From the NCBI RefSeq assembly GCF_000234805.1, contig NC_016645.1:1836391-1900390 (forward strand): a stretch of DNA of 64,000 bases, in the 5' to 3' direction. The DNA comes from Pyrobaculum ferrireducens. GTDB lineage: Archaea > Thermoproteota > Thermoprotei > Thermoproteales > Thermoproteaceae. Made by a program: the position numbers and the translations under genes. Positions 41,104-45,315 of the stretch are shown piece by piece. The notes beneath the pieces were generated by a model. It was not told the DNA's origin and made no database searches. It saw only the letters and a list, made by a program, of their open reading frames with translations. Every line of letters begins with the position of its first letter. Position 1 is the stretch's first letter.

Positions 41104-42627
41104 GTGTTTGGCGCTATAGCCAAGTGGCAGTTGAAGGGGATAGAGAAGACGGACATAGATCCTCTGAAGTTTAGGAACACGGCGAGGCTATTCGGCATTC
41201 TGGGACTTGGCGTGTTGGCGGCAGGTGCGGCGTTCTCAGCGCTGGGTCTCTTTCCCCTCGGTCCTGTGTTTCTGGGAGTCGGAGGCTTGGTGTTTTTCCT
41301 CCCCAAGCTCTTGGTGTCCGTACGCGCCGGCTCTATACGGGAGATGCTGTCTACGGAGATGGTGTTTTTTACGGCGCTGGTCCAAATGGCGTTCGCGACG
41401 AAGGCTCATCTTAACCTGCTTATTGAGCGCATGACGCGCTACAGAGAGCTCCCAGGCGTGAGGACCCTCGCCATAGCCGCTTGGAACAACGCTAAGATGG
41501 TGGGGCTTGAGCCGCTGGACGCAATGAAGCGCGCCGTGGAGAAGCTGGCCCCGCAGAAGCTGGTTTACCGCTTCAACTCCCTGTACACATCCCTCAGAAT
41601 TGGAGAGGATATAGTGGCGAAGCTCTCCCTCTACATGGATATGGACATCGTGGAGTTCTCCTCGGCAATGCAGAGACGCATGGATAGAATGACCTCGCTC
41701 ATCTCATCCCTCGTCGTAGGTCTGGCGATGCTTTCCGTAACCGCCGTGGTGATAGGAAGGGGCAACCCCGCCATGTTAGTAATAATGGGTGGGCTCCTCC
41801 CCGCTGTTTTAGGCGTCGTGATGGCTCTCTTCATCAACGTGCCCCTTATGAAAATGGAGTTTAGAAAAGTCCCTTTAATCTTTGGAGTTGCGTCATCCAT
41901 TGCCATGATAGTATTAGGTTTTACGCCAGCCGCCTTCTACGCGCCTCTAATGGCCTTTGCTGTGGCTTTAGCTGGGTGGATACTCACGAGAGAAAGGATA
42001 AATGCGAGGGCTTTCGAGAGGGGGTTTATGGATTTTGTATATACGGTTTTTGATGAGCTTAAAAGAGCGCCGTCTGTTTTCCGCGCCGTTGAAAACGCAA
42101 TTACCTTTGGAGACTACGGACCCTTTAATAACAAAGCCGCCGCGGTATTACAAACTATGAAAGTGGGCGACAGCCGGCTAGAGGATGTGGTTTTAAAAGA
42201 CATGCAACCAGTTATGTCTGTGATCTTGAGAATGTTGTTCGACATCTACCGCTTGGGTACTCTGCCCCGCGCGACGATTGACCAACTACAGAACTTTGTT
42301 ATGAAACTCTTTGAATACAGGACAGAAATTGGGAAGACTTTAAACATAACGCGTTTCTTGGCCCTCGCCGGCGCCGCCATGGTGGCTTTTGTAAACACCT
42401 CTATGATAAAACTGACGGAGGCTATGTCTAAAATCTCAGGTGGGGCACAGCTAGGCGGTGTTGGAATGAGCATGTTGTACATGGCACTGGGCATAATGGC
42501 TGTGGGCTACTACTTCCTCTTCGCCCGTATTAGCTTCTCCACGAGGGGGGGTTTGCTGTACCTCGCCATGCTCTTCCTAGCAATTTTCGTGGCCTCATTC
42601 TCAGTCGGACTATTCCTACACGCATAG
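41104..42627 (+). CDS. Type IV pilus/archaellum-like membrane protein (FlaJ/TadC-type)
   Basis: 507 residues with several transmembrane segments (about 34-75 in two, ~195-245 in two, ~252-290, and four at the C-terminus ~418-505) and two cytoplasmic helical domains. The layout and pairing with a secretion ATPase three bases downstream indicate the T2SF/FlaJ membrane platform. GTG start with TATA-like atatttaag (41080-41088). Confidence 0.85.
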   Translation: MFGAIAKWQLKGIEKTDIDPLKFRNTARLFGILGLGVLAAGAAFSALGLFPLGPVFLGVGGLVFFLPKLLVSVRAGSIREMLSTEMVFFTALVQMAFATKAHLNLLIERMTRYRELPGVRTLAIAAWNNAKMVGLEPLDAMKRAVEKLAPQKLVYRFNSLYTSLRIGEDIVAKLSLYMDMDIVEFSSAMQRRMDRMTSLISSLVVGLAMLSVTAVVIGRGNPAMLVIMGGLLPAVLGVVMALFINVPLMKMEFRKVPLIFGVASSIAMIVLGFTPAAFYAPLMAFAVALAGWILTRERINARAFERGFMDFVYTVFDELKRAPSVFRAVENAITFGDYGPFNNKAAAVLQTMKVGDSRLEDVVLKDMQPVMSVILRMLFDIYRLGTLPRATIDQLQNFVMKLFEYRTEIGKTLNITRFLALAGAAMVAFVNTSMIKLTEAMSKISGGAQLGGVGMSMLYMALGIMAVGYYFLFARISFSTRGGLLYLAMLFLAIFVASFSVGLFLHA

Positions 42628-42630
42628 GCT

Positions 42631-45315
42631 ATGTTGGACTTTCGGCTAGACTCCTGCCAGGGCGCCATTGTTGAGGAATACCTGTCCGAGGGAGCGAGGA
42701 TTCAGATTTACCAATCGGAAGACGGCTACTGCTACAACGTGGCCTATGCATTCCCCTACTCAGAGAGGGTAGGTGAATATGCGTATAAGGTAGTGGAATA
42801 CCTAACTGCCAACCAGATAATTAGACCCAACATCTCAAGGGAGGAGCTTGGCAAACTGATAGAGATGGCAATGACGGACATCGGGGTACCTAAGCAACTG
42901 CGCGCCGCGGTTAGGTACTACGTCCAGCTCGAGGCGGCGGACTACTCCTACCTAACGCCTATACTATATGACATCAGACTTGAAAATGTCAACATAAATG
43001 GAACTGACAACCCAATCTTTGTAGATCACCGCGATTATGGATACAACGTAAAGACAAATGTTATACCAACTAATAGGGAGTCATTAATAAAAATCGTGGG
43101 GAGAGTCTACGCGGAGACCGGAAGACCACTAAACGAGCAGTACCCAATTCAAGACACTTATATCAGGCTGAGGAACGGGGCACTACTGCGCTTCGCAACT
43201 GCGATGTCCACACGCGTATCGAGGAACCCGCCGTACGTATCCGTGCGTATCCAGCCGCCCTTCCCAATATCCCCCACTGAGCTCATTAAGAAGCGTACCA
43301 TCTCCGCGCTTGCGATGGCCTACCTCTGGTACCTCTTCGAACACCATAAATCTGTTATGGTTATCGGAGGCACGGGCACCGGCAAGACTACATTACTAAA
43401 CGCACTGCTTGTCCTCCTGCCTCATAAACGCCTCGCCATCGCCGAGGAGACTCCGGAGATAAGAGTCCCCCCGAGCTACCAGAACGTGGTAATGCTCTTC
43501 ACATCGCCCATGTACGACTACATGAAGCACCTGCCTGGGTCTGAGTCCGCCATATATCTAATAGACTTGGTTAAGTACCTCCTACGCGCCAGGCCCGACA
43601 TAATTATAATCGGCGAGAGCCGCGGTCGCGAGATACACGAGCTGATACAAGGCGTGTTGACAGGCCACGGAGGCGCCACCACGTTCCACGCGGAAGACAT
43701 CATGGAGGTCTTCATGCGTCTCACTGGAGAGGCCATGGGCGTCTCGGCGGAGCACCTCTCCGCTTTCCACGTGTTGGCCACTATCAGAAGATTCGAATTC
43801 GGTAGGAGGGTCACGTCTCTGACGGAGGTGGTGTGGCTGAGGGCGTATCCGTACGCCGCCCCAGGCAAGATAAAGATTAAAGAGGAGGAGTTTGGCTTAA
43901 TAAACGTGGGTTGGTACGACCAGCGTACAGACACCGTGGAAGTGGATCTAAGGAGATCCTACTGGCTACAGAAAGTAGGGGGGTACGACGAGATCCTCGA
44001 AAGAGCTAAGTTCTTGGCAGGCGGCAGGGCGGTAGACGTTAAGAGAGTTTTGGGCTGGGATGACGTGGTCATGACCGACTCGGGCGCCTACCAAATAATG
44101 AGGTACGGGAGTATCGAGGTGGATCCCGACGAGATTTTGCTTTACCAGGCCAGCATCGGGAGCGATATCGGCGTAATACTAGACCTACCCTTTGACTACG
44201 AGGAGCCGTACGAAAGCGCCTTGCTAAAGGTAGAGGAGACTATCAGGAGAGCAAAAAGAGCCGCGGCTATGCTGGAGAGGCTAGATATGTTGGTTGTGGG
44301 CCCTATACAAGGCGGTCTGCATCTAGATCTCCTGACTAGATCCGCGCGTGAGATCTCTAAGCTCGGCTTCCACATCTTCGCTATTGGTAGCCCCACGACG
44401 TTGCTTGAGGAGTATAAATTTGACTTGTTGCTTGAAGCCGTACTGCACGTCAAGGCAAATATCGTGAGAGAGGCGCCTCTACACCTCTTTGGCGCTGGTC
44501 ACCCACTAATCCTCCCGTTTGCGGTTGCTCTAGGTGTCGACCTCTTTGACAGCGCTTCCTACGTGTTATACGCAAGAGACGGCAGGATAATGCTTAGAGA
44601 TAGAACCCTCCGCCTTGACGATGTGAAGACAGATTACCTCCCCTGTAGCACGAAGCTGTGCTACACGCCAGTAAAAGAAATACGGGAGATGACCAGAGAA
44701 GAGCGCACTCAACTAATCGCCGAGCACAACCTAGCAGTTCTGAGAGAGGAGCTCCTCGAGGTAAAACAGAGAATACACGAGGGGACGCTGTGGGAGTACC
44801 TCGAGATAAAAGCCAGGGCACACCCATCGCTGTACAGGTTTCTAAGAGGTCTTGCAAAGTTTAGGAAGCTTATAGAGGAGTACGACCCCGAGACTCACCC
44901 AAAGCCGCACGGACTCTTTTTCTACCAAGACACCGCCGACTCCCGGCCAGAGCCACTTAGACACTGGACTAGGATGGCGAATCTGTACACGCCCTCTAGA
45001 ACCGCCGTGGTGATTAGGGTAGACGAAAAACCCTACAGCAGAACTTGGGAATACCGCTACGTCAAGAAGTTAACCGGGGGAAGGGCCCACATCCTCTTCT
45101 ACGACCCCGTGTTTGGCATTGTGCCGGAGGAGGTGGCCGAGGTGTACCCCCTCTCCCAGAACGAGGCCGAGGGCGAGGGCGAGGGGGCACGTGCCCATGC
45201 ATACGAGTGGCTAAGTCAATACGACGTCGTCTTGACGTACAACGTCGATTTGCCTATTATTGGCAAAAGAGTCGTGAAGCTAAGGACTCTTGACGAGGTG
45301 TCTCTATATATATAG
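42631..45315 (+). CDS. Type IV secretion ATPase fused to archaeal tRNA-guanine transglycosylase
   Basis: 894 residues in one uninterrupted frame. Residues 1-~463 are a FlaI/TadA-type ATPase: GGTGTGKTT Walker A (Lys252), AEETPEIRVPP, RARPDIIIIGESRGREI and GHGGATTFHAEDI. Residues ~466-894 are ArcTGT: MTDSGAYQIMRYG (Asp483), IGSDIGVILDLPF, GPIQGG, and DLFDSASY (nucleophile Asp640). The zinc site reads CSTKLC...H: Cys672, Cys677, His699 at correct spacing but Thr674 replaces a Cys. The first ~80 residues of ArcTGT (TPHG...NP region) and its PUA domain are absent; a separate PUA protein is at 48253. Start three bases after flaJ-like gene. A genuine fusion, or an assembly deletion, would give this pattern. 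Confidence 0.85.
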   Translation: MLDFRLDSCQGAIVEEYLSEGARIQIYQSEDGYCYNVAYAFPYSERVGEYAYKVVEYLTANQIIRPNISREELGKLIEMAMTDIGVPKQLRAAVRYYVQLEAADYSYLTPILYDIRLENVNINGTDNPIFVDHRDYGYNVKTNVIPTNRESLIKIVGRVYAETGRPLNEQYPIQDTYIRLRNGALLRFATAMSTRVSRNPPYVSVRIQPPFPISPTELIKKRTISALAMAYLWYLFEHHKSVMVIGGTGTGKTTLLNALLVLLPHKRLAIAEETPEIRVPPSYQNVVMLFTSPMYDYMKHLPGSESAIYLIDLVKYLLRARPDIIIIGESRGREIHELIQGVLTGHGGATTFHAEDIMEVFMRLTGEAMGVSAEHLSAFHVLATIRRFEFGRRVTSLTEVVWLRAYPYAAPGKIKIKEEEFGLINVGWYDQRTDTVEVDLRRSYWLQKVGGYDEILERAKFLAGGRAVDVKRVLGWDDVVMTDSGAYQIMRYGSIEVDPDEILLYQASIGSDIGVILDLPFDYEEPYESALLKVEETIRRAKRAAAMLERLDMLVVGPIQGGLHLDLLTRSAREISKLGFHIFAIGSPTTLLEEYKFDLLLEAVLHVKANIVREAPLHLFGAGHPLILPFAVALGVDLFDSASYVLYARDGRIMLRDRTLRLDDVKTDYLPCSTKLCYTPVKEIREMTREERTQLIAEHNLAVLREELLEVKQRIHEGTLWEYLEIKARAHPSLYRFLRGLAKFRKLIEEYDPETHPKPHGLFFYQDTADSRPEPLRHWTRMANLYTPSRTAVVIRVDEKPYSRTWEYRYVKKLTGGRAHILFYDPVFGIVPEEVAEVYPLSQNEAEGEGEGARAHAYEWLSQYDVVLTYNVDLPIIGKRVVKLRTLDEVSLYI

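Follow-up and report, generated by a model that had tools for sequence, protein, structure and literature searches.

A single open reading frame in the hot-spring archaeon Pyrobaculum ferrireducens joins a FlaI/TadA-type secretion ATPase to an archaeal tRNA-guanine transglycosylase (ArcTGT), which raises the question of whether it encodes a working protein of two functions, records a deletion between two genes, or reflects a fault in the genome record. The frame occupies positions 42631-45315 (plus strand) of the window, that is, of the whole 64,000-nucleotide stretch analyzed. The genome carrying the window (G000) is a single contig of 2,467,972 bp, and the nearest genome (G003) has ~95-96% DNA identity to the window.

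The fused open frame and its two parts

An earlier reading made from the sequence only had described this frame as an in-frame fusion; the open reading frame list and the translation bear this out, giving 894 amino acids with T2SSE and TIGR00432 matches. The features of the locus are as follows:

41104-42627, plus strand: TadC-like membrane protein of 507 aa, intact; an open reading frame, first gene of a conserved row, with a 507-aa orthologue in G003
42631-44016, plus strand: ATPase part (T2SSE match), residues 1-462 of a 494-aa orthologue, the C-terminal 32 residues being gone
44015-44017, plus strand: deletion junction; compared with G003, the left match ends at 44015 and the right match starts at 44017
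44014-45312, plus strand: ArcTGT part (TIGR00432 positions 70-440), residues 462-894 of the fusion, the first 61 residues of the orthologue being gone
45313-45315, plus strand: stop codon of the fused frame, from the open reading frame and its translation

The ATPase part is matched by Pfam T2SSE (PF00437) at residues 149-378 (E 4.6e-25; 88.5 bits against a cut-off of 24.9), and its translation contains both the Walker A (GGTGTGKTT) and the Walker B (PDIIIIGE) motif, as had been noted. It is 99% identical to its G003 counterpart and 92-95% identical to those of most other Pyrobaculum species, falls short of the full orthologue by the 32 residues listed, and scores below the cut-off for the FlaI archaellum motor (NF058587; 163 bits vs 550). 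The TadC-like protein, which gives a weak UpsF match, is found beside the ATPase throughout the genus.

The TGT part is 97% identical to the G003 ArcTGT and is matched by Pfam TGT at residues 467-732 (E 8.2e-62) and by NCBIfam TIGR00432 (TgtA) at residues 468-847 (466 bits; curated cut-off 350). The latter match covers positions 70-440 of the 441 in the profile: It starts at 70, not at position 1, and the catalytic domain is thus incomplete. In an alignment with the Pyrococcus horikoshii enzyme (1iq8), Asp483 and Asp640 correspond to D95 and D249, so that their designation as the retained catalytic aspartates was correct. The proposed two-part layout, with ATPase residues 1-463 and TGT sequence from about 466, also stands, with the break placed at residue 462; likewise, the start of the enzyme is indeed truncated, by 61 residues of the local enzyme and not by ~80, a figure that follows P. 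horikoshii numbering.

Two further features of the TGT part had been reported with the truncation, namely Thr674 in place of a zinc-binding cysteine and the lack of a PUA domain. Both are real: Thr674 aligns with Cys281 of 1iq8, and the three-cysteine zinc site is absent from the window, where the motif reads CSTKLC. Both are also genus-wide and lie outside the event. In each of the eight further Pyrobaculum ArcTGTs that were aligned, the middle zinc cysteine is a threonine (CSTKLC in the genus; CNTKLC in G008 and CSTRLC in G001), and all eight share a length of ~495 aa and a short C-terminus without PUA; no PUA domain was found in the G003 ArcTGT. On the evidence of the aligned sequences, these traits are not caused by the fusion, and as signs of decay they were rejected.

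The locus in relatives and the missing block

Eight other Pyrobaculum genomes in which the locus could be read whole (G003 and seven more) all carry five separate genes, encoding a TadC-like protein, an ATPase of 493-494 aa, a ~70-aa protein whose gene overlaps the end of the ATPase gene, a ~170-aa protein, and an ArcTGT of 489-501 aa; a tenth genome has the same row, running over two contigs. The comparison with other Pyrobaculum species, to which the sequence-only reading had pointed, thus finds the ATPase and the ArcTGT as two genes of normal length with two small genes between them. The latter are located as follows:

L021 6463-6972, minus strand: gene for a 169-aa protein between ATPase and ArcTGT
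L021 6969-7181, minus strand: gene for a 70-aa protein between ATPase and ArcTGT

Neither protein has a Pfam, NCBIfam (above cut-off) or PHROGs match. Both accompany the ATPase where ArcTGT sits elsewhere, for example in G012 and G015, and are therefore part of the ATPase row; ArcTGT is merely the next gene after this row in Pyrobaculum. The two proteins are likely to be unnamed parts of a pilus-like system. Across the family, their genes are retained beside the ATPase. Within the same family (Thermoproteaceae), the ATPase orthologue is broken by a frameshift or stop in G016 (G016:C1:778263-779673) and G018 (G018:C55:22512-23393); these split orthologues suggest that the ATPase system is dispensable.

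Relative to G003, 1,020 bp have no counterpart in the window, and the flanks are collinear and gap-free up to 44015 and from 44017, as expected from the clean splice described before. The lost block spans residues 463-494 of the ATPase, the two small genes, and residues 1-61 of ArcTGT, and is somewhat A+T-richer (47% G+C vs 56%). Base 44016 agrees with neither side of G003 and may be a filler base or simple divergence. The longest word common to both breakpoint neighborhoods is 7 bp, and random pairs mostly share 6-8 bp; a repeat-mediated deletion was ruled out, there being no repeat above chance at the breakpoints. A register shift of 1,019 bp unites the two frames, and a random deletion keeps the frame one time in three.

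Among 148 G003 open reading frames over ~218 kb, the ATPase and ArcTGT are the sole pair apparently cut by a deletion in G000. A search of that genome for a second, full ArcTGT or a close orthologue of the ATPase, either of which the sequence-only reading had thought worth looking for, found none, and the lost 169-aa protein gave no match there. The junction sequence is absent from 10 other genomes of the genus. In the 45 genomes of the order surveyed, TIGR00432 is matched from position 1 in every other complete genome, and partial ArcTGT profile matches are confined to draft assemblies. By these comparisons the fusion is specific to this one genome sequence, and a conserved architecture was rejected, the fusion being seen in this genome alone. 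Open frames of 1235 aa in G006 and 1300 aa in G002 were dismissed as natural fusions because their ATPase frames stop after 494 aa; a TGT-only search gave frames of 497 and 508 aa, respectively. A literature search found no paper on an ATPase-TGT fusion of this kind.

Selection on the two halves and the truncated transglycosylase

Between G000 and G003, the TGT part shows 68 synonymous and 11 nonsynonymous differences and the ATPase part 56 and 3, giving omega values of 0.042 and 0.014, respectively, which average over the whole branch and are silent on the time after the deletion. The median over 105 neighboring genes is 0.093, and the TGT part lies below it. Of its 11 nonsynonymous changes, four can be assigned to the G000 lineage and two to that of G003, five being ambiguous; the portion of the G000 branch that could have evolved neutrally has a 95% upper limit of about 7-20%, varying with the placement of the ambiguous sites. 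A long-standing pseudogene is rejected by omega. The TGT part was under selection until nearly the present. This leaves three possibilities: a young deletion, a fused protein that still works, or a deletion that the organism does not really carry.

The 61 residues lost from ArcTGT include 31 positions invariant among the eight genus enzymes and presumably supply barrel strands 1 and 2, going by the known TGT fold; the ATPase helix that now replaces the segment bears no resemblance to it. In an alignment with the Zymomonas mobilis TGT, the segment holds the counterparts of Val45, Leu68, and Asn70; in that enzyme, Val45, Leu68, and Val282 make up the floor of the ribose-34 pocket, and Asn70 is adjacent (PMC5395182). 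The strand carrying the first catalytic aspartate is unformed in an AlphaFold model of the fusion and formed in one of the G003 enzyme, a weak hint only, as these low-confidence models (mean pLDDT 70 and 52) were built from too-shallow alignments. Most likely, judging from what is missing, the TGT activity of the fusion has been lost. We consider it very unlikely that a tRNA-guanine transglycosylase could work without N-terminal barrel elements while forming the C-terminal domain of an ATPase of the pilus type.

Transposon mutants of tgtA in Thermococcus kodakarensis, which have no archaeosine, grow at 85 °C and poorly at 93 °C (PMC6393311). These mutants live, and the loss of archaeosine is therefore survivable in principle; by analogy, it should be costly at ~90 °C. 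The gene for the next enzyme of the pathway, QueF-like, is intact in G000, which is in keeping with a recent event; the P. calidifontis product converts preQ0-tRNA to archaeosine (PMC5485725). The genome also encodes a second TGT-like protein:

G000:C1:898054-898962 (locus L062, 552-1463), minus strand: TGT-like paralogue of 303 aa, matching phrog_887 at 88.6 bits

The paralogue is kept across Pyrobaculum and present in much of the order, and in G012 it lies ~0.4 kb from the QueF-like gene. Its substrate may be tRNA or, by analogy with DpdA, it may act in DNA 7-deazaguanine modification.

Origin of the fusion and comparison with known systems

On balance, we think it probable, without great assurance, that a recent strain-level deletion of ~1.02 kb fused remnants of the ATPase and ArcTGT genes in frame by chance and left the ArcTGT crippled or dead. 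The deletion, which would have occurred in the strain itself or shortly before in its lineage, would be a real change of the DNA, made by the joining of unrelated ends; the ATPase gene would have lost its end and the ArcTGT gene its start, together with the two small genes in between, leaving the remnants in one frame by the one-in-three chance. The chimera would be produced as one polypeptide, in which the TGT part, without its 61 N-terminal residues (expected to contribute the initial two strands of the barrel and a portion of the substrate pocket), would be inactive or nearly so, and the ATPase part would retain its motor core, minus its tail and two operon partners. Position 15 of the tRNAs would then carry little or no archaeosine. 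Some points count against this reading: With the TGT omega below the neighbor median, the deletion must be young; the QueF-like gene is intact; and archaeosine loss at ~90 °C is expected to carry a cost.

Alternatively, the fusion may stem from an error in assembly or finishing, in which the sequences on either side of a gap were put together with ~1 kb left out, the strain itself having the usual row of five genes; we regard this as unlikely, though a serious contender. The strong past constraint on both halves and the intact QueF-like gene fit it, as do the A+T-richer composition of the missing block and the finding of a sole deletion-cut pair in ~218 kb, as in a genome with nothing lost. 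However, assembly software collapses at repeats or relies on overlaps, and the junction has no repeat above chance; the base-level quality is high, short indels being few across the 188 kb aligned, and the join is in frame and clean to the base. It would be decidedly unlikely that the chimera folds and exchanges the base at G15, perhaps because other sequence substitutes for the lost barrel elements or their loss is tolerated, with the ATPase still active. The single open frame, the two catalytic aspartates, the low omega of the TGT part, the lack of another ArcTGT in the genome, and the intact QueF-like gene all speak for a working fusion, but the loss of the genus-invariant residues and pocket-lining counterparts, the dissimilar ATPase helix in their place, and the strand missing from the low-confidence fusion model argue against it, and the constraint, covering the whole branch, is uninformative on the time after deletion.

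That the short TGT-like paralogue took over and made ArcTGT dispensable is hardly to be expected: It keeps DSGG and DSA motifs, and the QueF-like gene is only 7 kb away, yet its scores do not reach the cut-offs of TgtA and Pfam TGT, its match is to phrog_887, and it also occurs in the other Pyrobaculum genomes, all of which have a full ArcTGT. The sequence-only reading had offered a deletion fusion still yielding both functions or, as its alternative, a deletion introduced in sequencing or assembly; a deletion that joined neighbors standing apart in relatives agrees with our results, whereas a designed protein keeping both motor and tRNA enzyme functions is not supported.

Should the deletion be real and the enzyme dead, the strain would represent a hyperthermophile that lacks archaeosine by nature, offering a direct test of the need for this tRNA modification near 90 °C, conditions under which tgtA mutants of Thermococcus fail. 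A working fusion would alter current ideas of how little a TGT fold requires. If the junction is an assembly error, the genome record is to be corrected, and the annotation of a "fused secretion ATPase/TGT" should not spread. The interest of the locus is modest unless the strain turns out to do without archaeosine or to manage with a shortened TGT.

Compared with known systems, the fusion resembles ArcTGT (TgtA, TIGR00432; 1iq8) in matching profile positions 70-440 far over the cut-off and in both catalytic aspartates. It differs in that an ATPase stands where the genus enzyme has its first 61 residues, and, together with the whole genus, in the threonine for Cys281 and the missing PUA domain. 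It shares the Walker A/B core of FlaI/TadA/VirB11-type secretion ATPases (PF00437), whereas its C-terminal 32 residues are gone, 433 TGT residues are added, and it scores below the FlaI equivalog cut-off. As in other fusions of neighboring genes by deletion, two codirectional genes are spanned and one frame is left; unlike in those, one partner here is deprived of an apparently essential N-terminal part.
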